From positions 1-63,533 of the forward strand of contig VXTP01000047.1 of NCBI GenBank assembly GCA_009837395.1: a DNA stretch of 63,533 bases, in the 5' to 3' direction. Below are positions 2,092 to 59,046 of the stretch, piece after piece. How positions within the stretch are numbered: position 1 is the first letter of the stretch; the number at the start of each line of letters is the position of its first letter. The translations under genes and the position numbers were made by a program. Source of the DNA: Gemmatimonadota bacterium. GTDB taxonomy: Bacteria; JAAXHH01. Below the pieces are notes generated by a model that saw only the letters and a program-made list of their open reading frames with translations, ran no database searches and was not told the DNA's origin.

Positions 2092-3153
2092 TCACTCCAC
2101 CGAGACGGAAACCCTACCCGGGGATGAGGTGTAATTCCTGAACATGGTCGGAAACGACATTCGCATCTTAACGCGTTCACCGTCGTGTACTGCCGGCGTA
2201 TAGACCGTTTTTCGAGCCACGTCCACCATCAAAGAATCCACATCAGCGAAACCTGACGATCTTTCGACGAAAGCCGCGTCCACGTATCCAGAAGTGCCTA
2301 CCACGAGTTGAACCACCACGACGCCATCGAAATCCAGATCTACGTCGTTGGGAATCGGCGGATTGTAGATAACCTCGGCTTTCGTATCCACCGCAGTGGG
2401 CCAGTAAATCCCAACTTTTTCGTCCGCCAACTGGTCGGCCTTCCGGTCGGGTTGACCTCCTGCCGACTCGGGTTGACCTCCTGCCGACTCGGGTCGGTCT
2501 GCCAGGTTTGGTCGGCCTGCCAGATCCGGTGGTCCAGCCAGTTCCGGTTGTACTGCTGATTCCAGCCGGCTTACCATCTGTGCAAGTTCCGAGATTTGTT
2601 CCTCCACCGATGGGGTGTCGGAACCGATGGGTGACAGGTGTAACACGTTGCCGACCCCATCAATCAGCACGCTGTGGGGAGAATGCGGCAGATCGAAGGG
2701 AGAATCGACGGCCAGATACACCGGGAAGTCGTACCTGAATCTCTCCACAATCGGCGTGATCTCTTCGGCCGACTGTGCCTGGAGTACGCCGATAACAGGG
2801 ACACTGTCACCGATCACCGATCCAAATGTTGACAACATGTCGAGGTTGCCTGGATGATGCCACGACTCGAAAAACAAGAAGACCGCGTGCCCCTTGCCGA
2901 GATCCGGCATTGCAGCAGGTTCGCCGTGCCGGTCGACCGCGCTGAATGGGACAATAAAGGGCGTGCCGAAGATCTTCTCCGCCTGCAACACGCGGGCTTC
3001 CAACTGAGCGTTGTATAGACTGTGCTCCAGATTCTGAACTTCCAGTTTTTGTTGTTCGTTGCGCCAGAAGAGGGTGATGCTCAATACGAGGACGACTGCG
3101 ACGGCGATGTAAACGTATAGCCAGATGTTCGTGCGTGAGACGGGTGTGGACAT
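2092..3153 (-). CDS. Membrane-anchored redoxin-like / TonB C-terminal fusion protein
   Basis: The N-terminus has one membrane segment (about residues 10-28), then a coiled-coil-like stretch, then a thioredoxin/AhpC-like region (about 60-195). At the place where a TlpA-type redoxin has its WCxxC site this protein reads FFESWHHPGNLD, so both catalytic cysteines are absent. A Pro/Ala/Gly-rich linker (about 200-245) with an internal duplication leads into a TonB C-terminal-type domain (about 250-345, VVVVQLVVGTSGYVDAAFV). The periplasmic side is the likely location. The start is supported by AAGGAAA about 8 bases upstream. Function is unknown; a non-catalytic binding role coupled to TonB-like contact with the outer membrane is inference. 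Confidence 0.7.
   Translation of the reverse strand: MSTPVSRTNIWLYVYIAVAVVLVLSITLFWRNEQQKLEVQNLEHSLYNAQLEARVLQAEKIFGTPFIVPFSAVDRHGEPAAMPDLGKGHAVFLFFESWHHPGNLDMLSTFGSVIGDSVPVIGVLQAQSAEEITPIVERFRYDFPVYLAVDSPFDLPHSPHSVLIDGVGNVLHLSPIGSDTPSVEEQISELAQMVSRLESAVQPELAGPPDLAGRPNLADRPESAGGQPESAGGQPDRKADQLADEKVGIYWPTAVDTKAEVIYNPPIPNDVDLDFDGVVVVQLVVGTSGYVDAAFVERSSGFADVDSLMVDVARKTVYTPAVHDGERVKMRMSFPTMFRNYTSSPGRVSVSVE
2450..2491. repeat. 21-bp tandem duplication in the linker of the redoxin/TonB gene
   Basis: Two identical copies of a 21-bp unit lie head to tail at 2450-2470 and 2471-2491. They encode the repeated ESAGGQP heptad on the minus strand. Less perfect copies of the same kind of sequence flank them and give the ADRP/AGRP/AGPP repeats in the linker. 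Confidence 0.85.
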
Positions 3154-14830: not shown

Positions 14831-16465
14831 ATGAAGCCACGTTATAAAACTGGTTATTTTGCGGCCGGCAACGTGCAGCGCACGCTCTGCCCGGTCACTT
14901 CCGTCGCACTGTCCACGATTTTAACTGCCGCGCTCTGGGGAATGGCTCTCTACGGCGTCACCTCGGCTTTCCCGGCTGCCGCCCAGACCGGGTCCGTGTC
15001 GATCACGGAGGACCCCGGGCCGGTGCCGGCGAAGGAGCTGGCGGAAAGGCGGGAACGGATACGCCAAGGCATGGGCAGCGGGATCATGGTCCTCTTCGGG
15101 GCGGAGCCCAAGGTATTCAGCAACGACGTGAACTATCCCTACCGGCAGGAAAGCAACCTCTTCTACCTGACCGGCATCAGCCAGCCCGGCGCCGCGCTCG
15201 TGCTGGTGCCCGGAAACCGAAGCCAGAAGGAGATCCTCTTCCTCCCCAGGCGCGACCCCGCACGGGAAATCTGGACCGGCCACATGATCGGGGTGGAAGA
15301 GGCCCGGCAACGGACCGGGATCGCCCATGTATGGCCGATCGAGGAATTCGACGCCTTCGTGGAGACTATCCTCAACGGTTCTGCCTATAAAAAACGTCCG
15401 TCCGATGACACCCGGGACTACCGGGCCATCGGCGAATCCATCGAGAATGGAACGCCCGTAGCCCTATGGCTCCTGGCCGACGCCAGTTCCAGGTACGGCA
15501 GCCGGTATCCGCAAGCCCTCCGGTTCGCGGCGGAGGCCGCCCGTTTTCCCGCCGTCCAGGTCCGGCTCGCGTCCGCCCTGTTCCGGGACCTGCGCGTCGT
15601 CAAATCGGACTGGGAGCTGCAGCGGTTGCAGCGCGCCGTCGACATCACCCGCCTGGCGCAGCGCGCCATCATGCGCCGGGCGGGCCGACCGGGCGTCCGG
15701 GGCGGCACCTTCGGAGCGGGCGGACCAGGCGGACCACTGAACGAATCCGTACTCGACGGCATCATTCTTTCCATCTACCGCGCCCACGGCGCGCACTGGG
15801 GTTTCCCGTCCATCGTGGCCTCGGGACCCAACGCCACGACCCTGCACTACGAGGAAAACAACCGGGAGATCGCGAGCGGCGAACTCGTCCTGGCCGATAT
15901 CGGCGCGGCCGTCGGATACTACACGGCCGACGTCACGCGGACCTTCCCGGTCGGCGGGGTCTTCTCGGAGGCCCAGCGCGAAGTATACGAGATCGTCCTC
16001 GACGCCCATGCCCGGGGCGTCGCCGCCGTCCGGCCGGGCATGACCATGCGCAGGGTGCATGAAGTGGCACGGAAAGTGATCGCGGACGGACTCCTGGAAC
16101 TGGGGCTGATCACGAGTACGTCGGGAAACCAGTACCGCATGTGGTACATGCACGGCACGAGTCACTGGATCGGGCTGGACGTCCATGACGTGGGCGGAAG
16201 GGACATGCCCTTCAGACCGGGCATGGTGATCACGGTGGAACCGGGCATCTACGTCCGGGAGGACACGCTCGAGAACCTGGACGACACCCCGCGGAACCGG
16301 GCGTTGATCGAGGAGATACGGCCCGCCTTCGAACGGTACCGGAATATCGGGGTGCGTATCGAAGACGACGTGCTGGTGACCGAAGACGGACACCGGGTGA
16401 TGTCGGAAGGCACGCCCCGGTCGATCGAGGACGTCGAAGCCTTCATGGCGAATCCCGTTCCTTGA
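14831..16465 (+). CDS. Exported Xaa-Pro aminopeptidase (M24B family)
   Basis: The product resembles PepP. An N-terminal creatinase/prolidase N domain (about 65-230) carries the LFYLTGISQPGAALVL motif. The C-terminal pita-bread domain has the five metal ligands in order: Asp356 and Asp367 (ADIGAAVGYYTADVTRTF), the His of HGTSHWIGLDVHD, the Glu of VEPGIYV and the Glu of RIEDDVLVT. A long N-terminal segment (about 1-52, hydrophobic core then AAAQ) looks like a signal peptide, unlike cytosolic PepP, so it probably works in the periplasm on proline-containing peptides. It sits alone between argJ and moeA. Confidence 0.9.
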   Translation: MKPRYKTGYFAAGNVQRTLCPVTSVALSTILTAALWGMALYGVTSAFPAAAQTGSVSITEDPGPVPAKELAERRERIRQGMGSGIMVLFGAEPKVFSNDVNYPYRQESNLFYLTGISQPGAALVLVPGNRSQKEILFLPRRDPAREIWTGHMIGVEEARQRTGIAHVWPIEEFDAFVETILNGSAYKKRPSDDTRDYRAIGESIENGTPVALWLLADASSRYGSRYPQALRFAAEAARFPAVQVRLASALFRDLRVVKSDWELQRLQRAVDITRLAQRAIMRRAGRPGVRGGTFGAGGPGGPLNESVLDGIILSIYRAHGAHWGFPSIVASGPNATTLHYEENNREIASGELVLADIGAAVGYYTADVTRTFPVGGVFSEAQREVYEIVLDAHARGVAAVRPGMTMRRVHEVARKVIADGLLELGLITSTSGNQYRMWYMHGTSHWIGLDVHDVGGRDMPFRPGMVITVEPGIYVREDTLENLDDTPRNRALIEEIRPAFERYRNIGVRIEDDVLVTEDGHRVMSEGTPRSIEDVEAFMANPVP

Positions 16466-25148: not shown

Positions 25149-25484
25149 CTAATCTTGTCGTCCGCCCTGTTCGGCCGGTCCACCTGGTACGTCCGATCCG
25201 GTTGGCACGCCTGACTCGACGCGACCGCCCGATCCGTCCGTCCCGTCCGGTCGCTCCACCGGATCGTAACCGCCCGGGTGAAAGGGATGGCAGCGCAGCA
25301 GCCGCCACGCGGCCATGCGGGTTCCGGTGAACGGGCCCTTTCGTTCCAGTGCTTCGATGGCGTAATTCGAACAGGTGGGGGTAAACCTGCAACATGGCGG
25401 GAGGAGCGGGGAGATGACGAGCCGATAGCCGCGAACGCCCCAGACGAGCGTGGTCGTGATTGCCCTGGTCAGCCGTTTCCACAT
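25149..25484 (-). CDS. yidD: Membrane protein insertion efficiency factor YidD
   Basis: The conserved part (about residues 10-70) has the YidD pattern [19 protein letters not shown] followed by a [11 protein letters not shown] end. YidD assists YidC-dependent membrane insertion. The last 40 residues are a low-complexity Gly/Pro/Asp/Glu-rich tail not typical of the family and resembling the inserts in DnaA and GyrB here. Start ATG 25484 is chosen for homology (MWKRLTRAI). It overlaps the end of rnpA by 16 bases. Confidence 0.92.
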
Positions 25485-26350: not shown

Positions 26351-27748
26351 ATGAAGCAGGAAGATCCTGCACAGCTCTGGTCGGTGTGCTTGTCGGAACT
26401 GAGGGGCATGATGCCCGCGCAGACGTTCGCGACCTGGTTCGAGCGGACCAAGGGGCATGACGTAACACCGGAAAAATTCACGATCGAGGTACCGAACCCG
26501 TTCTCCGGCGAACGGATGCTGAAGCGGTTTCACGACAAGATCAGCCAGGTCGTGACGACCCAACTCGGCCGCCAGGTCGTCATTGACTACCACATCTTCG
26601 AGGGCAATTCACAGATCATCCCCGTGCTTACCGACCTGCCCTCCTACGTGACGGACCGGGCGGACCGGGCGGACCAGGCGGACCAAGCTGACCGGGAAAA
26701 GCAGGCCGCGGGCGAGGCGGAATCGGACAACCTCTACGACAACTACACCTTCGAGAACTTCGTCGTGGGGGAGTGCAACGACTTCGCCCACGCGGCGTCC
26801 CTGGCCGTGGTGAAATCTCCGGGCCAGCAGACCTTCAACCCCCTAGTCATCTACGGCGGCGTCGGCCTGGGCAAGACTCACCTAGCGCAGGCGATCGCCC
26901 ACGAATCGAAGCGGCTCGGCACCGTCGACCGCAGCCGGTACGTCACATCGGAGATCTTCTACAACGAATTCATCGAGTCCATCCAGGAAAAGAAGACGAA
27001 GGAGTTCGCCCAGACCTACCGGAACGTCGACCTGCTGATCGTGGACGACATCCAGTTCTTCTGCAAGGGGCACAAGGACCGCACCCAGGAGGAGTTCTTC
27101 CACACCTTCGACGTGCTGCGCCAGAAGGGCAAGCAGATCGTCCTGACCAGCGACCGCATTCCGAAGGAGCTTTCCGGCCTGGAGGAACGGCTGGTGTCCC
27201 GGTTCGAGTGGGGGCTTCTCGCGGACATGAAGCCGCCCGACTACGAGACCCGGGAAGCCATTCTACAGAAGAAGGCGGACAAGGACGGGCTGTCGCTCAG
27301 CCCGGACGTCATCGCCTATATCGCCGACCGCGTCGCATCGAACATCCGGGAACTGGAAGGCGCCGTGCTCAGCCTGCTGGCCTACGCGTCGCTGAGTCAC
27401 TGCGACATTACCATCGAAGTGGCGAAGCGGGTGCTGAGCAACAAGATCCGCAGAAAACAGCGCTCAGTGGGGATGGAAGACATACAGAAGGCCGCGGCCG
27501 GCCATTACGGCGTGTCCGTCGAGGATCTCGCCGCGAAGACGCGAAAGAAGCACGTGGTGGCAGCCCGCCAGGCCGCCATGTACCTTTGCCGGGACATGAC
27601 GCGCGCGTCGCTCAAGGATATCGGCGCGGTTTTCGGCAAGAGAGACCACACCACCGTCATACACGCCTGCCAGACGGTCAAGAAGCTCCTGTTGAACGAC
27701 GAAACCCTCCAGGAAGACCTCGATAAGATCAGAAATTCGCTGGCTTAG
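26351..27748 (+). CDS. dnaA: Chromosomal replication initiator DnaA
   Basis: DnaA binds DnaA boxes, opens the origin and recruits the helicase. Domain I is at about residues 1-85 ([22 protein letters not shown]). Domain II is a short low-complexity linker with four RAD/QAD units (about 97-120). Domain III has [10 protein letters not shown], Walker [11 protein letters not shown] and Walker [11 protein letters not shown]. Domain IV ends with the DNA-binding signature [16 protein letters not shown]. Length 465 is normal. The linker repeats are DNA-level near-copies of a GGACC-type repeat, and part of them recurs near 54619. Confidence 0.98.
26653..26710. repeat. GGACC-type nonamer repeats in the dnaA linker
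   Basis: Units of about nine bases close to gcggaccgg are repeated four to five times and encode the [13 protein letters not shown] run of domain II. The last part, 26690-26710, encodes ADREKQAA and matches 54619-54639 at 20 of 21 positions. Confidence 0.85.
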
Positions 27749-29668: not shown

Positions 29669-30766
29669 GTGCACCTTCAAGGGCTGTCCCTCAGTCATTT
29701 CAGGAATTACGCATCCCTGTCGCTGGCCTGTGATTTGCAAACGAATGTTTTCATCGGATCGAACGGACAAGGAAAAACCAACCTCCTGGAAGCGGTCTAC
29801 TACCTGTGCGTGGCCCGGTCCTGCCGCGAGGCACAGGACCGGGATCTCGTGCGCATGGGGGCGGACCACTTCCTGATACAGGGACAGGGCCGGTCCGCGG
29901 AGGGCAGGGAGGTCGAGGTACAGATCCGATACGCCCGCCCGTCGGGGAAGAAGGTCTTTGTAAACGAGTCGCCCCAGCGGAACCTGTCGGACCTGTACGG
30001 TATTTTGGCGGCCGTCGTGATCTCGCCGGACGACCGGAGGCTGGTCCAGGGCTCGCCGGGCTCGCGCCGGCGGTTCCTCGACATCGCGATCTCGCAGTCC
30101 AACGCCGCGTATCTTTCGGCCCTGCAGGAATACAGGCGGGTGGTCCGGCAACGCAACGAGGCGCTGCGCGCGTACCAGGAGCGGCCGGGAAGCACGGAGG
30201 GCCTGGAAGTCTGGAACACTCCCCTGGTCGCGCTGGGCAGCCGGATCATGAGAAAGCGGGTGGAAGTCGTCGAGGACCTGAAGGAAGAAGCCAGCCGCAT
30301 TCACGCCGCCGTCAGCGCCGACAGCGAGAGTCTCGAGATCGACTACGCGCCCTCCTTCGAATACAAGGCCCTCGCGGATATCGAGCAGGCCTTCGAGGAG
30401 GCGCTGGACCGGGCCGCGCCGCGGGAGAGGGCGCGGTGCATGACGGAGGTGGGGCCCCATAGGGACGACCTGTCCATCCGGATGAACGGGGTCTCGCTGC
30501 AGGCCTTCGGGTCGCAGGGACAGCACAAGACGGCGGCGACGGCCCTGAAGCTGGCGGAAGCCCGCTTTCTGTGGCGCCGGCTGCAGGCCCCGCCGCTGCT
30601 GTTGCTGGATGACATATTCGCGGAGATCGACGCCGCCAGGACGGGCCGCCTGATGGAAATGGTACCCGCCTACGGCCAGACCTTCATTACGACGGCCAAG
30701 GAAAGCGATATAGGGGACTACCGCCGGGGGATCACCCGGTTCCGCGTCCACGGAGGCGCGGTGACG

Positions 30767-30778
<12 letters not shown>
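29669..30778 (+). CDS. recF: DNA replication and repair protein RecF
   Basis: RecF is an SMC-like ATPase that helps load RecA at gaps. The protein starts with HLQGLSLSHFRNY, has Walker A GSNGQGKTNLLEA (about 32-44), the family motif SPGSRRRFLDI, the ABC signature region QGQHKTAATALKLAE and Walker B PLLLLDDIFAEID. Length 369 is normal. GTG 29669 is the start next to the dnaN stop. The stop region is duplicated: ccctacgactga occurs at 30767-30778 and again at 30781-30792. Confidence 0.96.
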
Positions 30779-33573
<2,795 letters not shown>

Positions 33574-41601: not shown

Positions 41602-42861
41602 ATGACGGACTACCAGGCCATGGAAAACCAGGCATCGATGGGTATTCTGCCCAAGCGGGACGTGGTGATCGTCCGGGGCAGCGGCGCCCGTCTCTGGGAC
41701 AGCGCCGGCAAGGAGTACATCGATTGCATCGGCGGGATCGGCACGGCCAATGTGGGCCACTGCCATCCGGCCGTGACGGAGGCGATCGCGCGGCAGGCGG
41801 AACGGCTCGTGATCTGTCCGGACACCTTCTACAACGACCTCCGGGCGGAACTGGCCACGGCCCTGACCCGGACCGCCCCGGAGGGGCTGGACCGGCTCTT
41901 CCTGTGCAATTCGGGTACGGAGGCCGTGGAGGCGGCGTTTAAATTCGCCAGAGTCGCCACGGGGCGGACCGGCATCATCGCGGCCCAGCGCGGATTTCAC
42001 GGACGTACCTTCGGGTCCCTGAGCGCGACCTGGAATCCCAAGTACCGCGCCCCCTTCGAGCCCCTCGTTCCCGGTTTCACCCACGTGAAATACAACGATG
42101 CCTCCGCCATGGAGGAATCCATCGGCGACGGGACGGCTGCGGTGATCCTGGAGGTGGTGCAGGGCGAGGGCGGCGTTCGCATCGGCGACGGCGCGTATCT
42201 GAAGCGCGTGGCGGACCTGTGCCGGGAGCGCGGCGCCCTGTTCATCGTGGACGAAGTGCAGACCGGATTCGGCCGGACCGGTGCCATGTTCGCCTGCGAG
42301 CACCATGGCCTGCGGCCGGACATGCTCTGCCTGGCCAAGGCCATGGCCGGCGGCCTGCCCGTAGGCGCGACGCTCTGCGCCGAAACGGTCCGGAACGTCC
42401 CCGCCATGTCCCACGGCAACACCTTCGGCGGCAGTCCGGTGGTCTGCGCGGCCGCTCTGGCCACGCTGCGCGTGCTGGAGGAGGAAGGTCTCGTAGAGAA
42501 CGCCCGGGAGAACGGCGCGTATTTCCGGGATGCCCTCGCGGCGCTGGACGCGCCTTTCGTCCGGGAGATCCGGGGCATGGGCCTGATCATCGGCGTCGAG
42601 ATGAAGGGACGGGTCACCCCCATCCTCCGCGGACTCATGGAACGCGGCGTGATGGCCCTGCCCGCGGGCAACACGGTGCTGCGCTTCCTCCCGCCCCTGT
42701 CGATTTCCAGGGAAGAGATCGACCAGGTAGTAGAGGCTGTCGGCGCGGTGCTGGGATCGCTGGAGGTAAATTCGGCGGACGGCTCGGACCGCCCGACCGG
42801 TACGGTCCGGAACAGAAGACGTGCGCGGCAAAATCCTGCCGGAGCCCGGGAGACGGAATGA
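41602..42861 (+). CDS. lysJ: LysW-lysine/ornithine aminotransferase LysJ
   Basis: This class III PLP aminotransferase converts the LysW-bound semialdehyde to LysW-lysine with glutamate as donor. Motifs include NSGTEAVEAAFKFAR, the aspartate in FIVDEVQTGFGRTG, the PLP lysine in CLAKAMAGGLPVG and SHGNTFGGSPVVCAAAL. Residues 393-419 form a basic tail absent from most relatives. TTGGAG precedes ATG 41602 after an 80-base gap, so it may be translated independently. Its end overlaps lysK by four bases. Acetylornithine aminotransferase activity is possible too. Confidence 0.9.
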   Translation: MTDYQAMENQASMGILPKRDVVIVRGSGARLWDSAGKEYIDCIGGIGTANVGHCHPAVTEAIARQAERLVICPDTFYNDLRAELATALTRTAPEGLDRLFLCNSGTEAVEAAFKFARVATGRTGIIAAQRGFHGRTFGSLSATWNPKYRAPFEPLVPGFTHVKYNDASAMEESIGDGTAAVILEVVQGEGGVRIGDGAYLKRVADLCRERGALFIVDEVQTGFGRTGAMFACEHHGLRPDMLCLAKAMAGGLPVGATLCAETVRNVPAMSHGNTFGGSPVVCAAALATLRVLEEEGLVENARENGAYFRDALAALDAPFVREIRGMGLIIGVEMKGRVTPILRGLMERGVMALPAGNTVLRFLPPLSISREEIDQVVEAVGAVLGSLEVNSADGSDRPTGTVRNRRRARQNPAGARETE

Positions 42862-43910
42862 GTACCGCCCGCGACGACATCGCGCTGCTGCGGGGCCTGG
42901 TCGAGCGGTACAGCCCTTCCACGCAGGAAGGCGAGGCCGTTTCCTTCCTGGTGGACGCCATGGATCGCCGGGGGCTGCGCGCCCATGTCGACGAGGCCGG
43001 CAACGCGGTGGGCGAGGTTGGTAGCGGCGAACCGCACATCGCCCTGGTCGGGCATATCGACACGGTACCCGGCATCGTACCCATCCGGGAGGAATCGGGC
43101 AGGCTTTACGGCCGCGGTACGGTGGACGCGAAGGGGCCCCTTGCGGCTTTCGCGGCCGCCGCGAGCCGGTTCACACAGCCCGGGCGCGGCCGGATCACGG
43201 TCGTCGGCGCCGTGGAGGAGGAGTGCCCCACCTCGAAGGGCGCCCGCCACCTGGTGGACCGCATGCGCCCCGACTGCGTGATCATCGGCGAACCGAGCGG
43301 CTGGGACAGCGTCACCATCGGGTACAAGGGCCACGTGGGGTTCGACTACCGCCTCGAGCAGCCCAACGCCCATCACGCCGGCGACCACAAACGCGCTGCC
43401 GAGCGGGCGATCGATCTGTACAACGCCATGCAAGCCCGCGTCGCCGGCCAGGCCACGGAAAGCGAATTCGGGTCTCCCCGGCTCGAGTTGAGGCGATTCA
43501 ACACTACGGACGAGGGATTGACCGAGGGCGTCGAGGCGTACTTCTCGGTGCGCGTGCCGCCCGGTTACGACCTCGATGGCCTGATTAGTTTTGTGATGGA
43601 ACAGGCGGGCTCGGCGGAAATCGTATGCGACCAGCGCCTTCCTGGCGTGGTTGCCGAGAAGAACACGGCGCTGATCCGGGCACTTTTACGGGGCATCCGC
43701 CAGGAAGGCGGCCGGCCGACCTTCAAGAAGAAAACGGGCACGTCGGACATGTGCATCGTCGGACCGGCCTGGAACTGCCCGATAGCCGCCTACGGTCCCG
43801 GCGACTCCAGCCTGGACCATACGCCGGACGAGCACATCGTCCTGGAAGAGTATCTGCGCTCCGTCGAAGTGTTGACGGCCGCGCTGAAGCAGCTCACCTC
43901 AGCCGATTAG
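42858..43910 (+). CDS. lysK: LysW-lysine hydrolase LysK
   Basis: LysK releases lysine (or ornithine) from LysW. It is an M20 family metallohydrolase. Metal ligand motifs are LVGHIDTVPG, GRGTVDAKGPLAAF, VEEECPTSKGARHL, IIGEPSGWDSVTIGYKG and a C-terminal GPGDSSLDHTPDEHI. At 350 residues it is the usual size. ATG 42858 overlaps the lysJ stop as ATGA; an open frame continues upstream inside lysJ but is a shadow. It is the last gene of the operon and converges on the DUF4159 gene. Confidence 0.93.
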   Translation: MSTARDDIALLRGLVERYSPSTQEGEAVSFLVDAMDRRGLRAHVDEAGNAVGEVGSGEPHIALVGHIDTVPGIVPIREESGRLYGRGTVDAKGPLAAFAAAASRFTQPGRGRITVVGAVEEECPTSKGARHLVDRMRPDCVIIGEPSGWDSVTIGYKGHVGFDYRLEQPNAHHAGDHKRAAERAIDLYNAMQARVAGQATESEFGSPRLELRRFNTTDEGLTEGVEAYFSVRVPPGYDLDGLISFVMEQAGSAEIVCDQRLPGVVAEKNTALIRALLRGIRQEGGRPTFKKKTGTSDMCIVGPAWNCPIAAYGPGDSSLDHTPDEHIVLEEYLRSVEVLTAALKQLTSAD

Positions 43911-43934
43911 TCCATCTTCAGAACTGACGCAGGC

Positions 43935-44726
43935 TCAGTGCGTCATCGCGTAGATGGCGTAGTTCACGGCCAGCCGGTACGCGATCACGGAATACGCCCG
44001 CGGGTACCCGGGATCGGCCGCGTGTTCCCAGCCGTCGCCCAGGTCCGCGTTCCAGTTCATCAGCACCATGAGCCGGCCGTTGTCGTCGGTTATGCCCCGC
44101 AGCCGGTGGCCGTACAACGCGCCGTCCCGCTCGTAGTTGCCCGGTCTCCACAGGGCCGCGGTACCGGGCACCAGGGGATACTCGTCGAAATCGTAGTAGC
44201 AGTGGAATATCGCGTGGCCGGCGGGGACTTCCTCGATGTTCCTTTCGGGGAACACCCGCTTCATCTGCGATTCCCAGACCGCCCACTGGCGCGATCCGTG
44301 GAAATCGTCCACCATCAGGAACCCTCCGCGCAGCAGGTACTCCCGCAGGGCGTCCACTTCCTCCTGGCTGAACTGCAGGGATCCGACTTCCAGGATATAC
44401 AGGAAGGGAATATCGAACAGATCGGGGTCGGTGAGTTCCACGGCCTTCGGTTCGTTGATCTTGAGGGAGGTCGTGGCCCGCAGGGCGCGGATTACGTTGG
44501 CGTCGGCCGACGGGAAGTCCACCGACCACCGCCCCCATCCCCATCCCCGGTAGAACCCGCCGGAGTTCTGGTACACGACCCGGCCGAAGGTGAAATCATT
44601 GCGCAGAAAGAGGTCGTGGCCGGAATCGCCGCTGCCGCGGGCCGTCCACAGCGCCACGCCGGTCAGGCAGGCCAGGCAGACCGCCAGGGCCATTCCGATG
44701 CATTTGGGAAGGCGTGCGTATTTCAT
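43935..44726 (-). CDS. DUF4159 family exported protein
   Basis: The N-terminus has a signal or anchor segment (about 12-30). The rest matches the DUF4159 pattern: FTFGRVVYQN, NVIRALRATTSLKI, DLFDIPFLYILEVGSLQFSQEE, LREYLLRGGFLMVDDFHG, and an RLRGITDDNGRLMVLMNWNADLGDGWEH end. The region LLRGGFLMVDDFHG suggests a glutamine-amidotransferase-like fold. The gene follows MoxR and VWA genes on the same strand, and such genes often travel together. Its function is not established. Confidence 0.85.
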   Translation of the reverse strand: MKYARLPKCIGMALAVCLACLTGVALWTARGSGDSGHDLFLRNDFTFGRVVYQNSGGFYRGWGWGRWSVDFPSADANVIRALRATTSLKINEPKAVELTDPDLFDIPFLYILEVGSLQFSQEEVDALREYLLRGGFLMVDDFHGSRQWAVWESQMKRVFPERNIEEVPAGHAIFHCYYDFDEYPLVPGTAALWRPGNYERDGALYGHRLRGITDDNGRLMVLMNWNADLGDGWEHAADPGYPRAYSVIAYRLAVNYAIYAMTH

Positions 44727-44744
44727 TTTCGAATCCGATCGGGC

Positions 44745-45980
44745 TCACGCCCTGAGGATCAGTTCGCCGATTTCCTGGAGCTGGGCCAGGTTCCGGCATT
44801 CCAGCACGTGATCGCAGTGCGGGCTGTACCTGGACATGACGGAATCGTCGGTGTCCCAGTACTGTATGGGTTCGGGGTTCAGCCAGATCGTCTGGTGGAC
44901 CCTTCCCTGGATTTCGCCCAGCACCCAGTCCTGGGGGTCGAACCAGTTGGTCCGCGCGTCGCCCAGGATGACGAGCACCGTGTCCCGGGAGAGGGACAGC
45001 AGCTGTTCGTCGTGGAACTGGTAGAAGGCCCTGCCGAAATCGCTCAGGCCGAAGAAGTTCAGCGCGTGGTCGTCTTTCATGTTCTCGACGATCTCTTCGA
45101 AGGGCCTGCGGTCGAACTCGTCCGTCACCTCGTTGATCCGGTCCACGAAGAGGAAGCTTCGGGCCCGGCTGAACTGGTTCTGCATCTCGTGGACCAGCTT
45201 GATGAAGAACCGGGCGACCTCCCAGACCGATCCCGACACGTCGCACAGCACGACCAGTTCGTTCTTCTTGATCTTGCGGTGCCTGTAGATGATGTGAAAG
45301 GGCAGATTGCCCGTGCGGAAACTCCGCTGGATCGTCTTCTTGATGTCCACCCGGCCATGGCGCGACTTCCTGAATCGCAGGGACTTGCGCGTCACCAGGT
45401 TCCGGGCCAGTTCCTCCACCGCCTCGTACAGGTTCTCTACGTCGCCCGGTGGCAGTTCCTGGTAGAGGTCGACGTCCTCCGCCTGCTGGTTCGGCTGCGT
45501 GCCGGGTTCGGTGACCGCGTCGGAAGCCTGTTCACCCACCTGAACGCGGGCGAGCATCCGCTCCAGCTCGCCTTCGAGTTCCCCGGTCTCGTCGTCGTCA
45601 GCGGGGTCTCCTTCCCCGTCCCCCGCCACGGCCTCGCCCTGCTCATCCTGGAGACGCCGGATTTCCTGGTCCCCATCGTCCTGCCCGTCGCCCAGGTCGG
45701 GTTGGCCGTCGGGCGGCCCTTCGGTTTCCCCGCAGGGATCGTCGAGTTCCTCCCCGTCTTCGCCCACCTGGACCAGGAAGAACCGTTCGAAGGCCTCGTC
45801 GAAGGCGGGTATGTCCTCTCGGGTCTTGACCAGGGTGGCCCGCAGGGACGCCTTGAAGGCCGGCCGTTCGGTGACCTGCGCGTGCCGTAGAACCTCGGCG
45901 GCGTCCAGGGTCTCGGCCATGGAAACGCGCACGCCGGATTGCCTGAGCAGCCTGGCGAACTCAACCAGCCGCTTGATCAT
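44745..45980 (-). CDS. VWA domain protein (CoxE-like)
   Basis: The C-terminal half (about 225-411) is a von Willebrand A domain with a MIDAS motif DVSGSVW, a FVDRINEVTDEF middle and LGDARTNWFDPQDW. The middle (about 75-170) is a long acidic low-complexity segment. The N-terminal part resembles the VWA/CoxE family. MoxR ATPases paired with VWA proteins act as chaperone-like systems that mature or activate metal enzymes. Its start overlaps the MoxR gene by 20 bases, so the two are made together. Confidence 0.88.
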   Translation of the reverse strand: MIKRLVEFARLLRQSGVRVSMAETLDAAEVLRHAQVTERPAFKASLRATLVKTREDIPAFDEAFERFFLVQVGEDGEELDDPCGETEGPPDGQPDLGDGQDDGDQEIRRLQDEQGEAVAGDGEGDPADDDETGELEGELERMLARVQVGEQASDAVTEPGTQPNQQAEDVDLYQELPPGDVENLYEAVEELARNLVTRKSLRFRKSRHGRVDIKKTIQRSFRTGNLPFHIIYRHRKIKKNELVVLCDVSGSVWEVARFFIKLVHEMQNQFSRARSFLFVDRINEVTDEFDRRPFEEIVENMKDDHALNFFGLSDFGRAFYQFHDEQLLSLSRDTVLVILGDARTNWFDPQDWVLGEIQGRVHQTIWLNPEPIQYWDTDDSVMSRYSPHCDHVLECRNLAQLQEIGELILRA

Positions 45981-46878
45981 GGTAACCGTCCCGCATGATC
46001 CGTTCGATGTCCTCCCGGTCTTTCATCAGGACGTTCAGCGTGCTTGAAAGGATGTCGCGCGAGAGGTGCTGCGCGTTCAGGACCACCAGCGCCAGCGCCC
46101 AGTCGATCGTTTCGGCGATGCTCGGAGGCTTGCGCATGTTGAGCGTCCTGATCTTCTGGACGAACCGGACGACCTGGTTGGCCAGTTCCTCGTCGATGCC
46201 CGGGGTCTTGCGAAGGACGATCCGGACCTCCTGCTCGAGGGAGGGATAGTTGATGTAAAGGTACAGGCACCGACGTCTGAGCGCTTCGGAAAGCGTCCGG
46301 TTGGCGTTACTCGTCAACACCACGAGGGGGCGTTGGGCCGCGGTCAGTGTGCCGAGTTCCGGGATGCTGACCTGAAAATCGCTCAGCACCTCCAGGAGGA
46401 AGCTCTCGAATTCATCGTCCGACCGGTCGATCTCGTCGACCAGGAGGACGACGGGTTCCGGCGAGAGAATGGCTTCGAGCAGGGGGCGCGGCAGCAGGAA
46501 ATTACGGGAGAAAAAGGCGCTGTCCTCCCGGTTGAGCGCTTCCACCGCGTTGCCGAGCGTGTCCGTACTGTTCAGCAGTTCGCCGATGCGGTCCTTGAGC
46601 ATCTGCGTGTACAGCAGCTGCTTGGTGTATTCCCATTCGTAAAGGGCCTTGGATTCGTCCAGCCCCTCGTAGCACTGCAGGCGGATCAGGCGGCGGTCCA
46701 GCGCGCCGGCGAGCATCTTCGCGATCTCCGTCTTCCCCACGCCGGGCGGTCCCTCGACCAGCAGCGGTTTCTCGAGCCGTTCCATGAGGTACACGGGCGT
46801 GGCCAGGTCGGGCCCGCAGATATATTGCTGGGCTTCGAAGCGTTGGATGACATCCTGGGCAGACGTGAAAGCGGTCAT
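45961..46878 (-). CDS. MoxR-family AAA+ ATPase
   Basis: The 305-residue protein has Walker A EGPPGVGKTEIAKMLA (about 41-56), Walker B VVLLVDEIDRSDDEFESFLLEVL, a sensor region VVLTSNANRTLSEALRRRCLYLY, and ends with lid helices. The form is closest to the CoxD/APE2220 type that partners with CoxE-like VWA proteins. It is the first gene of the leftward MoxR-VWA-DUF4159 operon. The client enzyme is unknown. Confidence 0.92.
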   Translation of the reverse strand: MTAFTSAQDVIQRFEAQQYICGPDLATPVYLMERLEKPLLVEGPPGVGKTEIAKMLAGALDRRLIRLQCYEGLDESKALYEWEYTKQLLYTQMLKDRIGELLNSTDTLGNAVEALNREDSAFFSRNFLLPRPLLEAILSPEPVVLLVDEIDRSDDEFESFLLEVLSDFQVSIPELGTLTAAQRPLVVLTSNANRTLSEALRRRCLYLYINYPSLEQEVRIVLRKTPGIDEELANQVVRFVQKIRTLNMRKPPSIAETIDWALALVVLNAQHLSRDILSSTLNVLMKDREDIERIMRDGYHDQAAG

Positions 46879-47170
46879 GATGCTCCTGAAGACAAAGACG
46901 AATCGGGGCGCGAAAACGGGTGGTTACGGGGCAGGCGCCATGATCTCCGGACGTGATTCCAAAGGGCGTCGACTCCGGCGTAAGGTAGGCGCGGCCGGGG
47001 CGATAGTCAAGCACATTTACCCCCGCGCCGGACCGGTGATCTCGCCGCCGAAGACCCCTGTCCACGGGCGGTCGCGGGCGTAGGCGCAGGACCAGAATGT
47101 GCTTGCCGAAACGGACCGTATGGCCTATATTGCGGAGGTCGAGCAATTCAGGAGAACATAGGAGAAAGCC
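46879..47170. other. Divergent MoxR-ccmE control region
   Basis: No gene is supported in this 292-base gap. It holds a plus-strand promoter for ccmE close to its right end. The remainder is GC-rich with no clear repeats or boxes. Confidence 0.5.
47105..47133 (+). promoter_or_regulatory. Candidate promoter of the ccm cluster
   Basis: TTGCCG at 47105-47110 and TATATT at 47128-47133 are 17 bases apart. Transcription would begin near 47140, about 30 bases before ccmE. Confidence 0.6.
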
Positions 47171-47644
47171 ATGAAAGAACGCCAGCGGAAGAAGCAGCGC
47201 AAATTCCTGGTGGGCTTCGGTATGGTGATCGCCGCCATCGGTTATCTGATCTACACCGGTGCGACCGACGCGACCATGTACTACCTTACCGTGAGCGAAC
47301 TTAAGGCCGCCGTGGAAACGGGCGACGTGGCCTACGACGAGAACATGCGCCTGCACGGCAAGGTCGTGAACGGGTCGATCCAGCGCGATGAGGTGGGCAC
47401 CATGCGCATCCGTTTCGTCGCCCACGAGGGCGGTGTCGAGGCCCCCGTCGTCTACACCGGCGTAGTCCCGGACACCTTCAAGGACGATTCGGAAGTGGTC
47501 GTGGAGGGCGGATACGGCCGGGACGGCACCTTCAACGCCCATACGCTGTACGCCAAGTGTCCTTCCAAGTACGAGGCCGAGGGGGGATACGGCCAGTATG
47601 AGCAGGCCGAGCCGCAGTCTCCGGAACCGCTTCCCCAATCCTAG
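47171..47644 (+). CDS. ccmE: Cytochrome c maturation protein CcmE, cysteine type
   Basis: CcmE is a membrane-anchored periplasmic heme chaperone. The basic N-terminus and membrane helix (about 12-30) lead to the OB-fold domain with MRLHGKVVNGSI and VVVEGGYGRDGTFNAHTLYAKCPSKY. In most CcmE proteins heme binds covalently to the His of HxxxY; here the motif is CPSKY, with Cys130 and Tyr134. This CxxxY variant is known from Desulfovibrio and archaea and goes with a modified system I. The gene heads the ccm cluster. Confidence 0.93.
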   Translation: MKERQRKKQRKFLVGFGMVIAAIGYLIYTGATDATMYYLTVSELKAAVETGDVAYDENMRLHGKVVNGSIQRDEVGTMRIRFVAHEGGVEAPVVYTGVVPDTFKDDSEVVVEGGYGRDGTFNAHTLYAKCPSKYEAEGGYGQYEQAEPQSPEPLPQS

Positions 47645-47664
47645 CCGGCCGGCGTTCCGGTCCG

Positions 47665-47724
47665 GCCGTGTCGCACACGAGAGGAACCGGTTCAGCCGTG
47701 TCGCGCACGAGAGGAGCCGGTCTT
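47665..47724. repeat. 30-bp tandem duplication before the CcmI-like gene
   Basis: Two 30-bp near-copies, 47665-47694 and 47695-47724, both contain gccgtgtcgc and cacgagagga. They fill the space between ccmE and the next gene. The second copy supplies the AGGAG closest to that start codon. Confidence 0.8.
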
Positions 47725-47729
47725 AGACT

Positions 47730-48422
47730 ATGACACTGGTTGCGTGCGGGCTGCTCGCGCTGGGCGTCCTCGCCTACATGATCAGTCCGATGCTGGACGG
47801 TTCGGTCCGCCGCCCCCGGATCGCCCGGTCCGCCGGGTCCCGCCGGGACGACCTGCTGAAGAAGAAGGATTTCATCTATTCTTCCATCCGCGAACTGAAT
47901 ATCGACTACAACATGGGCAAGCTGGCCGCCGAGGATCACGAGGCGCTCCGGCAGGAGTACATGAAGGAAGCTTCGGACGTGCTGGACGAACTGGACCGTA
48001 CCGCCGTCAGCGACCTGCCCGTGGAGGAACAGATCGAGGAGGCGGTACGGGAAATCCGGCGGCGCAGTGAACCGGGATCCGAAGAGACCGTGACCGTCGA
48101 CGACGATGCTGCGGGAGTGAAGGAAGCCAAAGACGAGGTCGATGGCGACGAGGCGGCGGTAGAAGAGACCGCTGTAAACGCGGCCGCAGAAGACGCGCCC
48201 GCAGAAGACGCGCCCGCCGGAGGCGCGCCCGCCGACGACGCGCGGCCCGTTCCGTCCGCACAAGTCCAGGTATGCAGGATTTGCCGAACGGTCAACGAGG
48301 CGTCCGCCAGATTCTGCATCGAGTGCGGCGTTTCGCTGAAAACCATCACCTGCGCCGGTTGCGGTGCGGAAAACCCGGCATCGGCCAGGTTCTGCGCCCA
48401 GTGCGGAGGAAAACTGATCTAG
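47730..48422 (+). CDS. Membrane protein with CcmI-like N-terminus and double zinc ribbon
   Basis: An N-terminal membrane helix (about 2-20) is followed by a helical region (about 38-110: KKDFIYSSIRELNIDYNMGKLAAEDHEALR) similar to that of CcmI/CycH-type assembly factors. Residues 115-180 are an Ala/Asp/Glu/Pro low-complexity segment with an EDAP repeat. The end holds two zinc ribbons: CRICRTVNEASARFCIECG and CAGCGAENPASARFCAQCG. Its position between ccmE and ccmA suggests a role in cytochrome c assembly. The zinc-ribbon addition is unusual for that role. Function inferred only. Confidence 0.7.
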   Translation: MTLVACGLLALGVLAYMISPMLDGSVRRPRIARSAGSRRDDLLKKKDFIYSSIRELNIDYNMGKLAAEDHEALRQEYMKEASDVLDELDRTAVSDLPVEEQIEEAVREIRRRSEPGSEETVTVDDDAAGVKEAKDEVDGDEAAVEETAVNAAAEDAPAEDAPAGGAPADDARPVPSAQVQVCRICRTVNEASARFCIECGVSLKTITCAGCGAENPASARFCAQCGGKLI

Positions 48423-48432
48423 TGGTGATCTT

Positions 48433-49620
48433 ATGAAGTACCACCCGCCTGCCAGCCCTTCGGGGCTTTTTGTTTATGGACCGTTCCTGGTGGCCTGGTT
48501 CTGCTTGGCGGTCTGCGTGTTCTGTCCGGTCCGGACCGCGCAGGCACAGGGAACCGGGAGCATCGGGCTCACGGTCGTGAACGGCACGACGGGCCAGCCG
48601 ATGGCCGGACACGAGGTCGTGCTGCTGAATCGCAGCAGCCTGGAGGCCCCGGAACAGACCCTTGCGAGAGTCGTTACCGACGATGCCGGCCGCTACGAAT
48701 TCACCGGGCTGGCGGTCGACGGGTCCCATTACGTGGTCGCCACCCGGTACCTGGAGGTACCCTATCTGACCGGTCTCATCACCCTTGATCCGGGCGCCGG
48801 ACGCATAGATCACCTGCTCCAGGTCTTCGATATCACGACCGATGAAACGGCCCTGGTCCACAGTGCGGTCCACCTGGTCATCGATACCGCCCCCGAGATC
48901 CTGAACGTCACGGAAATCATCGTGGTGGAGAACCGCGGCATCCTCACCTTCGCGCCACCGCCCGGTGTGGGGCTGGGCCTCGTCTATAACCTGCCCGCGG
49001 CCGCCTTCGGACTGCAGCCGATGATGGAAGGGCTTCAGCACACCGAGCGCGGTCTCCTGTTCTCGGCGCCCATCCCTCCCGGGGCCTCGCGGATCGTGTA
49101 CGCCTACAACGTGGACCGGGCGTCCATCGATCACCGGTTCAACAGGCAGATGGACTATGACGTCGAACGCGTCCAGGTGCTGGTCTCACCGAGTACCCAG
49201 CCGGTGACGGCCACCAACCTGACCAATGACGGCGTGCAGCAGATCGCCGCCGATGAATACTTGCTGCTATCGAACCGTGTGGGCGTGGGCAGGGGCATGT
49301 CGGTGGAGGTCGCCTTCCCCCGCGTGCTGGCCTGGCAGGACGTCATGAAGTGGGGAATGCTCGGATTCGTGGTGCTCATCGTGGCTGCAGGTCTGGTGGT
49401 GGGCATCCGCGTCAAGCCCGAACAGCCGGACGAACCACCCGCCCTGAGCGATCTCTCGCCGGAGGACGAACGAAAATTCGACGCGCTCGTCCAGGCCCTG
49501 GCCGCCCTGGACGACCAGTTCGCGGAGGGAGGACTGAACCCGGACGCCTACAGGACCCGCCGCGCCCGCCTCAAGGACCGGGCGCTCCGGCTGCGCCAAC
49601 CCGGGAGCGGCGATGGGTGA
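48433..49620 (+). CDS. Exported membrane protein of the ccm cluster, unknown function
   Basis: A signal peptide (about 1-39, ending AQAQ) precedes a carboxypeptidase regulatory-like beta sandwich (about 43-120: SIGLTVVNGTTGQPMAGHEVVLLN). A second beta-rich region follows, then a membrane helix (about 303-325), then a short cytoplasmic part with LDDQFAEGGLNPDAYRTRRARLKD. This last motif resembles the spacing of CcmH/CcmI cytoplasmic tails. It overlaps ccmA by eight bases, which ties it to heme export or cytochrome assembly. No experimental function is known to me. Confidence 0.7.
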   Translation: MKYHPPASPSGLFVYGPFLVAWFCLAVCVFCPVRTAQAQGTGSIGLTVVNGTTGQPMAGHEVVLLNRSSLEAPEQTLARVVTDDAGRYEFTGLAVDGSHYVVATRYLEVPYLTGLITLDPGAGRIDHLLQVFDITTDETALVHSAVHLVIDTAPEILNVTEIIVVENRGILTFAPPPGVGLGLVYNLPAAAFGLQPMMEGLQHTERGLLFSAPIPPGASRIVYAYNVDRASIDHRFNRQMDYDVERVQVLVSPSTQPVTATNLTNDGVQQIAADEYLLLSNRVGVGRGMSVEVAFPRVLAWQDVMKWGMLGFVVLIVAAGLVVGIRVKPEQPDEPPALSDLSPEDERKFDALVQALAALDDQFAEGGLNPDAYRTRRARLKDRALRLRQPGSGDG

Positions 49621-50440
49621 TCGATCCGCCTCGGACCTTGCTGGCACCTCCGGTGTCAATGTTTCCTCCGGCGTCGCTGGCGCCCCCGGTGTCGATGGTG
49701 CCGCCGGTGCTCCCGGCACCTCTGGCGCCCCAGGAATCGCTGGCGCCCCAGGAATCAGCGTCCGCCAGTTGACGAAGACCTACGGGCGTTTCAGGGCCCT
49801 TCACCGGGTGGACATGGACGTGGCGCCGGGATCCTTCCTGGCCCTGTTCGGTCCCAACGGCGCGGGCAAGTCGACCCTGCTGGGTATCATCGCCGGGCTC
49901 GTTCGCCCATCCCGCGGACAGGTGTTCCTGGACGGCGAGGAAATCACGAAGGACCGCGACGAAGACCTGGGGAAGCGGATCGGCGCGCTGTCCTACCAGA
50001 CCTATCTCTACGACGAACTGACCGTGCTGGAGAACCTGCGGTTCTACGGGAGGCTCTTCGGGGTGGAAAACCGCGAGGACCGGATAGGATCGCTGCTGAC
50101 CACGGTGGGCATGGAGGCCAGGTCGGGGAGCCCGGTACGGACCCTGTCGCGCGGCATGCGCCAGCGGGTAGCCCTGGCCCGCGCCCTGCTGCACGATCCT
50201 GATATCCTGTTGCTCGACGAGCCCTACTCGGGTTTGGACCAGGACGCGATGGTCATGCTCAAGACGGTCCTGGCCGCCCGGGACAAGACGGTCCTCCTGG
50301 TGACGCATGACCTGGTCCGCGGACTGGAATCCGCAGACCGCGTCGCCATCCTGAACCATGGACGGCTGGTGTTCGACGCCGAGACCAGCGAACTGTCGCC
50401 CTCGGATTTCGAGCAGACCTACCGCGATCACGTGGTGTAG
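49613..50440 (+). CDS. ccmA: Heme exporter ATP-binding protein CcmA with collagen-like N-terminus
   Basis: CcmA drives release of holo-CcmE with CcmB and CcmC. Walker A GPNGAGKSTLL, signature LSRGMRQRVALARALL, Walker B ILLLDEPYSGLD and switch VTHD are present. Before the conserved start (ISVRQLTKTYG, about residue 48) there are about 47 extra residues made of G-A-P-G/G-x-x units like collagen (GAPGTSGAPGIAGAPG). The repeats are visible in DNA as near-copies of about 18 bases. An internal start is possible but no good ribosome site is seen. Its start overlaps the preceding gene. Confidence 0.92.
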   Translation: MGDRSASDLAGTSGVNVSSGVAGAPGVDGAAGAPGTSGAPGIAGAPGISVRQLTKTYGRFRALHRVDMDVAPGSFLALFGPNGAGKSTLLGIIAGLVRPSRGQVFLDGEEITKDRDEDLGKRIGALSYQTYLYDELTVLENLRFYGRLFGVENREDRIGSLLTTVGMEARSGSPVRTLSRGMRQRVALARALLHDPDILLLDEPYSGLDQDAMVMLKTVLAARDKTVLLVTHDLVRGLESADRVAILNHGRLVFDAETSELSPSDFEQTYRDHVV

Positions 50441-52146: not shown

Positions 52147-52962
52147 ATGGCCGATCGAACGGAAAGTATCGCGCCGGACTGTTTCTCGCACATTCACATC
52201 ATTCTCGTAGAACCGAAAGTGCCGGGGAACATCGGCGCCGTCGCCCGGGCCATGACGACCATGGGGCTTTCCCGCCTCGTCCTGGTCAATCCGGCCGAAT
52301 TCCGCCACGAGGCCGAGGCCCGTTGGATGGCCCACGGGGCCGGGGATATCCTCGACAACGCCCGCGTCGTCCCGGCGCTGGACGAGGCGGTGAATGATCT
52401 CGCCCTCGTCGTCGGCACGACCAACCGCACCCGCGGGATCTGGCTAAGCCCCATACAGCCCATTGAAGCGGCCTGCGCCGAACTGTCCTCCGTTGCGCGG
52501 AACCAGCCCTGCGGCATCCTCTTCGGGCGGGAAGACCGCGGCCTGCTGAACGACGAACTCCAGCACTGCAACGTCATCGCCCGGATCCCCGCGGCGACAT
52601 CCTACCCTTCACTCAACCTGGCCCAGTCGGTCATGGTCTGCGCGTACGAACTGTTTCGCCAGAGTGTGGATGGTGGAGAGGCGCCGCACCCGTCCGACGT
52701 ACGCCTGGCGGAGCACCGGGCCGTGGAGCGCGTTACTCGGCGCGTGCACGAGACGCTGCTCCGGCTCGGATTCGAGTCCACGCCGAACGAGGAAACCTTT
52801 CTGCGCTCCATCCGCCGCGTCCTGCGCCGCAGCCTGCGGCTGGAGCAGCGCGACGTCGCCGTGCTGCACAAGGTATGCGACGAGATCGACGCGTACGTGG
52901 ACCGCCGCTCGGCATCGCCCGGTCCGCCGGACGCACCCGGTCCGCCCGGTCAGTCCGATTAG
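52147..52962 (+). CDS. trmJ: tRNA (cytidine/uridine-32-2'-O)-methyltransferase TrmJ-like
   Basis: A SPOUT-class methyltransferase of the TrmJ/LasT group. Motif 1 is IILVEPKVPGNIGAVARAMTTMGL; the knot motifs follow as CGILFGREDRGLLNDEL and RIPAATSYPSLNLAQSVMVCAYEL. A helical C-terminal part is typical of TrmJ. The last 20 residues are Pro/Gly/Asp-rich repeats similar to the low-complexity tails of other proteins here. It converges on truA with a 17-base gap. Confidence 0.9.
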   Translation: MADRTESIAPDCFSHIHIILVEPKVPGNIGAVARAMTTMGLSRLVLVNPAEFRHEAEARWMAHGAGDILDNARVVPALDEAVNDLALVVGTTNRTRGIWLSPIQPIEAACAELSSVARNQPCGILFGREDRGLLNDELQHCNVIARIPAATSYPSLNLAQSVMVCAYELFRQSVDGGEAPHPSDVRLAEHRAVERVTRRVHETLLRLGFESTPNEETFLRSIRRVLRRSLRLEQRDVAVLHKVCDEIDAYVDRRSASPGPPDAPGPPGQSD

Positions 52963-52979
52963 CCCGATCAGCCCGACCC

Positions 52980-56609: not shown

Positions 56610-56825
56610 CTTCTCTTCGATTGCGCGGACCGTGCGGGCCATGCGGACCGGTGGAAGCAGCCCAGCGGCACCGTCCGCTGGTTAAAATATGACGCGGGTT
56701 TTCCCCATGGTCAACGGAAACAGAGCGTTGAGGCCTGTTATTGAGGCCGTGTTATAATGAGTAGTCGGAGCGTGAACTACAATCTAGCATACCGGCGTGA
56801 TAAAAAAGTCCTCTTGCGATGAACC

Positions 56826-58083: not shown

Positions 58084-59046
58084 TCACAGGTCGAAGAACA
58101 GCCCGATCCCCGCGTAGTCGTCCTCCAGGTGATGGAACTGTCCGTGCTCGCTGCGGCCCCCGTGGTATACGAAGGCAATGCGTAGGCCCCGTGAAGCCTC
58201 GTTGTGAAACAGAAGGCCCGCGTGGGCCGTGCGGTTGACCGAGATGTCCCCGTCCCGAAACAGCCGCACGTCGCAGGCCAGGTAGGCCCGGGTTGTGCCG
58301 CCATCGCCCGAGAGGGGACGGAAGACCAGCTCGGCGCCTCCCTGGACCCGCCACCGCCGCACGTCAGGGATGGCGTGGTTCGACCACCGCAGGCTGCCGT
58401 AGACACGGGCGGAACCGATCGCGGATCCGACGGCGGATCCTGGCGCGAAGCGCAACTCGCTGGCGCCGTAAACCGTGAAATACTCCCGGCTGTAGGTCAT
58501 GGCCCGCCTGGCTCGCATGGTCCGGTCTGCCTTGTCGGCCTTGCCCGCGTGGTCCGCGTGGCTCGGTCCTTCGTACCCTTCGTACCCGCCGTACCCTTCG
58601 TACCCGTCGGCCAGGTGGGCGCTCACATGGGCGTATTCGAACCGCCCGGTGTACCTGTCGTTTCCCAGGTCCGCGTGGAAGCCGATCAGGTAGTCGGCGG
58701 TCTCGAGGGGAAAGGTCGTTCCCGACCGGCGCAACTTCGAGAAGACGCCCGCATGGATCCCGGTACGGAACCGCAGCCCGCCGTCCGCGCCCCACGCATA
58801 GTCGGCGGCCTCCCAGGAACCGCCGATGTCGCCGTTCAGCCGGTCGCCCAGGTTGGACGTTATCGCCAGCCGCGCCTCGGTCGGGTCGGCCAGCAGCGGA
58901 CGGAACAGCCGCTGCTGCGGGGCGGCGAAGCGCCAGGTCCCGCCGGAGGCCTCCACCGAGCCAAGGGCCGGGCCGATAGTGAGGAATAGAACCCCCATGC
59001 CGGCGAACCAAGGTAACCTTCGCAGGATAGTGTACATAATTGCCAT
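58084..59046 (-). CDS. DUF1207 family outer-membrane-type protein
   Basis: A signal peptide (about 1-30) is followed by the DUF1207 start pattern FRPLLADPTEARLAITSNLGDR. The rest alternates hydrophobic and polar residues with many aromatic ends, as in a beta barrel, finishing with YAGIGLFFDL, which has a terminal aromatic or Leu typical of outer-membrane proteins. An inserted loop (about 148-178) is made of YEGYGGYEGYEG and then HADHAGKADKADR, low-complexity units like those in other proteins here. Function unknown. Confidence 0.75.
   Translation of the reverse strand: MAIMYTILRRLPWFAGMGVLFLTIGPALGSVEASGGTWRFAAPQQRLFRPLLADPTEARLAITSNLGDRLNGDIGGSWEAADYAWGADGGLRFRTGIHAGVFSKLRRSGTTFPLETADYLIGFHADLGNDRYTGRFEYAHVSAHLADGYEGYGGYEGYEGPSHADHAGKADKADRTMRARRAMTYSREYFTVYGASELRFAPGSAVGSAIGSARVYGSLRWSNHAIPDVRRWRVQGGAELVFRPLSGDGGTTRAYLACDVRLFRDGDISVNRTAHAGLLFHNEASRGLRIAFVYHGGRSEHGQFHHLEDDYAGIGLFFDL

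Follow-up and report, generated by a model that had tools for sequence, protein, structure and literature searches.

Tandem arrays in linkers, protein ends and intergenic DNA of a bacterial genus converge on one nonamer

Unrelated tandem arrays in the window (the whole stretch of 63,533 nucleotides analysed here) and in related genomes converge on one and the same DNA nonamer. The arrays are probably inherited coding minisatellites whose copy number changes in place by slippage and which are tolerated in linkers, protein ends and intergenic DNA. The safest reading of the data is that short tandem duplication and slippage occur at a raised rate in this genus, and a function of the encoded protein segments is not needed to explain the arrays. 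The enrichment concerns the tandem arrangement and not the nonamer word itself.

The window belongs to a genome of 3,796,658 bases in 47 contigs (95.6% complete) which together with 11 others forms the set of 12 genus genomes used here. The organisms are uncultured bacteria and seemingly live in association with sponges, as isolate names and papers on sponge Latescibacterota suggest. Of the named relatives in which DnaA is near-identical, most carry the label Candidatus Latescibacterota. Two records within the genus (L061 and L067) are labelled Gemmatimonadetes and have near-identical relatives labelled Latescibacterota. Among the titles and abstracts listed, no report of a GGACC-type nonamer repeat in Latescibacterota was found. 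In a paper on sponge Latescibacterota (PMC12993501) the word "tandem" does not occur and "repeat" occurs 16 times in four places, all of these uses referring to eukaryotic-like protein repeats and to CRISPR.

The array in the DnaA domain II linker is a 9-nt array (ACCGGGCGG) that lies on the forward strand within dnaA (26351–27748). A reading of the window made from its sequence only had placed this repeat at 26653–26710, which overlaps the array, while the 9-periodic run itself extends from 26646 to 26694; Tandem Repeats Finder (TRF) reports 5.0 copies of CGGACCGGG at 26652–26696. The array sits between the Pfam domains DnaA_N (residues 8–69) and Bac_DnaA (residues 130–291), and across the sister species 0 to 36 nt are added in steps of 9 nt. 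Domain II is known as the most variable domain of DnaA, one that accepts an insertion of GFP, and changes of this kind are known to be tolerated there (PMC5448010).

The sequence-only reading had named similar inserts in the linkers or ends of several other proteins, and translation and the Pfam domain limits confirm that these sites are periodic or repeat-rich and variable in length. GyrB carries an N-terminal, repeat-rich extension of 48 residues with a degenerate 9-nt period (31114–31257, forward strand) that precedes HATPase_c (residues 78–218) and varies in length among the species at 31156–31200 and at 31248. In YidD the degenerate C-terminal tail (25152–25256, reverse strand; residues 117–151) lies beyond the YidD domain (residues 52–116), and its length varies by nines at 25171–25180 and 25220–25228. 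The linker preceding TonB_C (2434–2550, reverse strand) contains a 21-nt repeat at 2447–2494; the sequence-only reading had called it a redoxin/TonB linker, and Pfam scored no redoxin domain in the protein. A CcmA-like ABC ATPase has an N-terminal collagen-like extension with 18-nt and 9-nt periodicity (49631–49756, forward strand), of which residues 13–49 precede ABC_tran (residues 63–205); the protein also gave a match to the Pfam Collagen family below threshold. Nonamer arrays are also found in the C-terminal tail of a SpoU/TrmJ methylase and the bases directly after it (52917–52978, forward strand) and in a loop of a DUF1207 protein (58567–58609, reverse strand), where CCCTTCGTA nonamers encode GYEGYEGYE and the family-type ADHAGKADKADR follows further on in the protein. 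Strict nonamers are not universal among these inserts: the TonB linker is built on a 21-mer, the CcmA extension on an 18-mer, and the GyrB extension and the YidD tail are degenerate.

Three further sites were found. Within an M24 aminopeptidase gene (14831–16465) a family-type GGCGGACCAGG array at 15684–15735 (forward strand) varies by 0–63 nt. At position 11559 (forward strand) carB is free of any insert in the window and in genome G002, and in G010, G003, G001 and G006 in-frame inserts of 54–90 nt are present at this site between the CPSase_L_D2 and CPSase_L_D3 matches. An array of a 15-nt unit (ACGCGCCCGCAGAAG) preceding a zinc ribbon (48156–48243, forward strand) exceeds its counterpart in three of four sister genomes by 45 nt.

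In 624 called genes 12 two-copy nonamers with at most one mismatch in 16 positions are observed versus 0.5 in codon shuffles, the comparison that the sequence-only reading had proposed as a check; with at most two mismatches there are 45 versus 7.1 and 9.6 in the shuffles. In 348 called genes, taken from the window and from 400 kb sampled at fixed positions, coding runs of period 9 number 10 versus 0.2 after codon shuffling and 0.5 after shuffling within 15 codons. Periods 12, 15, 18, 30 and 36 likewise exceed the shuffles, and periods not divisible by three never gave more than one coding run each. Units therefore stand head to tail in excess of chance, as in coding minisatellites of the VNTR type. 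Since tandem arrays of periods 12, 15, 18, 21 and more are as common as those of period 9, the GGACC nonamer forms the most numerous single class in a broader excess of tandem repeats. In single copy outside arrays GGCGGACC is not enriched (134 occurrences versus 135 expected), so that a dispersed single-copy signal word is rejected.

Two-copy nonamer matches with at most one mismatch number 20–130 per genome in all 12 genus genomes and 0–2 in each of the 17 other genomes; a control with the reversed pattern is unusable here because that pattern belongs to the same circular nonamer family. Tandem arrays of any unit reach 22.7 per 100 kb in the window's genome, 33.5 in G001 and 28.3 in G006, as compared to 2.5–12.8 in seven of eight non-genus genomes and 35.0 in the remaining one, G031. 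Since this unrelated control (L175, L176; 40 kb sampled) is equally dense in arrays, density alone does not distinguish the genus. None of the arrays of G031 has period 9.

The orthologous windows of five sister species are collinear with the window and 91–94% identical to it. In eight aligned segments of together about 52 kb, 56 sites differ by at least 6 nt in length, 31 of them inside called genes. Of 154 site-by-species comparisons at arrays of period 9, 22 showed no difference in length, 111 a difference divisible by nine, eight another multiple of three, and 13 some other difference. Thus, 111 of the 132 non-zero differences are multiples of nine, and at the level of species the arrays vary by whole units. 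Array orientation is the same in 78 of 80 ortholog comparisons (about 23 distinct sites by a reading of the list), and the two flips lie 1.7 kb apart in one region. These orientation and length comparisons are not independent, as DnaA, GyrB, TrmJ and the peptidase each entered repeatedly. The kept orientation together with the whole-unit changes indicates that the arrays were passed on by descent and alter their length where they stand. It also disfavours repeated re-insertion at the same site. Clean tandem duplications are seen in the alignments at 30767, 47830 and 48047. Indels of at least 9 nt number 9.6–15.4 per 1000 substitutions in six pairs of genus genomes versus 4.3–6.1 in five pairs from a control genus of high GC and 2.9 in one pair of another genus, the control pairs being more diverged. 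The earlier proposal of a genome-wide process had been tied to counts above those expected from base composition and to linkers that vary between strains. The counts do exceed composition and the linker lengths do differ, here between species and not between strains, so that the proposal stands in this respect.

We suggest the following course of events. Short tandem duplication together with slippage at replication or repair would often add or remove whole units, most characteristically of 9 nt and also of 12–30 nt. Selection would purge arrays that break the reading frame or hit folded cores, and linkers such as DnaA domain II would thus hold the survivors. A sequence-biased mutational step would make unrelated arrays converge on one nonamer that is read in six frames. 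Hairpin-driven expansion, as with CAG repeats, was considered since GGNCC is a quasi-palindrome with a central mismatch, and the test did not support it: 73 units fold with a mean of −15.4 kcal/mol versus −14.8 for GC-matched (P = 0.36) and −16.8 for permuted sequences, and hence no better than the controls.

The convergence is seen when array units are compared across three species. At 34 of 63 nonamer-array loci the unit is at most two mismatches from the consensus CGGACCGGG (circular, on either strand), and without the window this holds for 32 of 60 array units. When 63 9-mers are drawn at random from the genome, their best consensus gathers on average 8.9 and at maximum 13 members within the same distance. 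The same likeness to CGGACCGGG is reached by 12.5% of the 9-mers flanking the arrays, 8.2% of genomic 9-mers and 17.0% of shuffled units. The CGGACCGGG-type unit occurs at many unrelated loci and on both strands, as expected of a dispersed simple-sequence repeat with a single unit. A list of 62 family arrays, in which several orthologous sites are counted once per species, contains 49 that can be placed in a coding frame and 13 that are noncoding or uncertain. The unit is on the sense strand in 34 arrays (17, 4 and 13 by frame) and on the antisense strand in 15 (6, 4 and 5), and the tripeptides that result are of the types Gly-Gly-Pro, Arg-Thr-Gly, Ala-Asp-Arg, Arg-Ser-Ala, Arg-Pro-Val/Asp and Gly-Gln-Pro (also GPP). 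As the unit is read in six combinations of frame and strand, the likeness resides in the DNA and not in the protein, and the collagen-like and the GGACC-type inserts are partly one DNA repeat in different frames.

A single consensus that prevails at unrelated loci, in every frame and on both strands, and that is confined to the genus, could also come about by dispersal, that is by copying of the nonamer or of pieces of arrays between loci through gene conversion, template switching or illegitimate recombination, followed by expansion. We regard this as conceivable, though rather unlikely. Of 60 array entries with an ortholog, 12 offer a usable sister site that is short or empty. The best seed there matches on average 7.42 of 9 positions versus 6.63 in random windows, and one of the 12 individually falls below P = 0.1, a slight advantage that would fit weak local seeding as well as insertion; the 11 sites without a clear seed would suit an arrival from elsewhere, as would the opposite orientations of two species at one region. 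Against dispersal speak the otherwise constant orientation at orthologous sites and the absence of any enrichment of single copies outside the arrays. In addition, by eye the alignments contain no fixed-length element with ends of its own, and inserts at one site vary in length among the species. For the same reason a mobile insertion of the MITE or palindromic-element type is rejected: neither a fixed length nor shared ends were seen. Thus, of the earlier suggestion that a genome-wide process spawns or spreads such repeats, the spawning agrees with the genus-wide excess, and the spreading does not follow from arrays that keep their orientation and change by whole units. In its boldest form, which we hold to be distinctly doubtful, one nonamer would actively seed new genomic sites, whatever the frame or strand, before expanding there, and so be a nine-base "micro-parasite" without transposase or reverse transcriptase. 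If this were true, even DnaA, GyrB and carbamoyl-phosphate synthase would gain and lose such sequence.

Arrays favour protein ends, linkers and intergenic DNA. In called coding sequence there are 14.6 arrays per 100 kb versus 65.1 elsewhere. All arrays taken together are thus denser outside called genes, yet most of the family arrays can be placed in a coding frame. Of 106 coding arrays 98 have a period divisible by three and hence keep the frame, and 40 are no more than 40 codons away from a gene end versus 20.6% expected; the borders of domains are likewise favoured. This agrees with the earlier statement that linkers and ends tolerate the arrays, with the exception of the M24 aminopeptidase, whose array falls within the Peptidase_M24 match and not in a linker. 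The preference for linkers and ends, and products that are hydrophilic or rich in glycine and proline, might point to selection at the level of the protein, with linkers requiring hydrophilic, disordered sequence of low complexity and similar tripeptides being selected. This explanation is disfavoured and in our view highly improbable, because one DNA unit yields six kinds of tripeptide (GGP, RTG, ADR, RSA, RPV/RPD and GQP/GPP types), because the density of arrays rises four- to fivefold outside called coding sequence and because 13 of the 62 family arrays cannot be placed in a coding frame.

If the genus had lost mismatch repair, or carried a telomerase-like reverse transcriptase, either would be a simple cause of the arrays throughout it. 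In a search that covered RVT_1, mutS1 and mutL, both repair genes were found in all 14 genomes, nine of them of the genus, each scoring over the cut-off in 13 of the 14, and RVT_1 had no match in the window's genome and matched in only four of nine genus genomes. Hence these causes are mostly refuted, and hardly any credence is left for them. Chance or an assembly artefact of GC-rich composition is refuted: the genome has 62–63% GC and lone nonamers are common in it, but codon shuffles and Markov controls lie far lower, the unit is absent from other genomes of similar GC, and the same sites carry arrays in separately assembled MAGs.

The arrays of the genus are a variant of known dispersed tandem-repeat families, among which the heptamers of Xanthomonas/Nostoc and of Beggiatoaceae come nearest; these either avoid coding DNA or are found mainly upstream of genes. 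Bacterial coding minisatellites or VNTR loci consist of in-frame tandem units whose copy number is variable among relatives and whose units are usually specific to the locus. The arrays of the genus share the in-frame, variable units with them, but a single unit is common to over half of their nonamer loci. Rickettsia palindromic elements are in-frame additions in essential proteins and are longer palindromes of roughly fixed length; they are likewise tolerated in essential proteins but do not form tandem arrays. The GGGNATC heptamer arrays of Xanthomonas and Nostoc are similar in having one short G-rich tandem unit in variable copies, genome-wide, on both strands and characteristic of certain genera, are under-represented in coding regions and are tied to G-quadruplexes, with a preference for four units; in contrast to their 7-nt unit, the unit described here has 9 nt, keeps the frame and is largely intragenic (PMC4692102). 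The TAACTGA repeats of Beggiatoaceae also show one dominant short tandem unit at many loci, near essential genes as well, and with an origin that is not known, but they have 7 nt, lie mostly just upstream of start codons and are distributed patchily over distant phyla (PMC4679880). The PARCEL intragenic tandem repeats are comparable as repeat coding sequence scattered among genes, and differ in that they encode a 25-residue amphipathic motif with hydrophobic residues and are associated with mobile elements (PMC2996958).

The interest of the finding lies in the convergence on one nonamer, which raises the question why the same DNA unit should prevail at unrelated loci irrespective of the protein encoded. 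The arrays in addition document, in 12 related genomes that are collinear in parts, how the length of linkers in essential proteins grows and shrinks in nature. "Domains" of the collagen-like, ADR-like or RTG-like kind in proteomes of this sort should be viewed with caution, as a single DNA repeat read in several frames may lie behind them.

Three minor observations were made in the alignments of the window. At the stop codon of recF a 14-nt tandem duplication (30762–30792) is common to the window and G003 and absent in four sisters. At position 56735 of the window G010, G006 and G001 have 58–106 nt extra, part of which by eye resembles the 3′ half of a tRNA gene. At 43909–43932 two blocks that directly adjoin each other in the window stand about 7.6 kb apart in G003 (42171–49816 of its joined reverse strand), in a region that is otherwise collinear.
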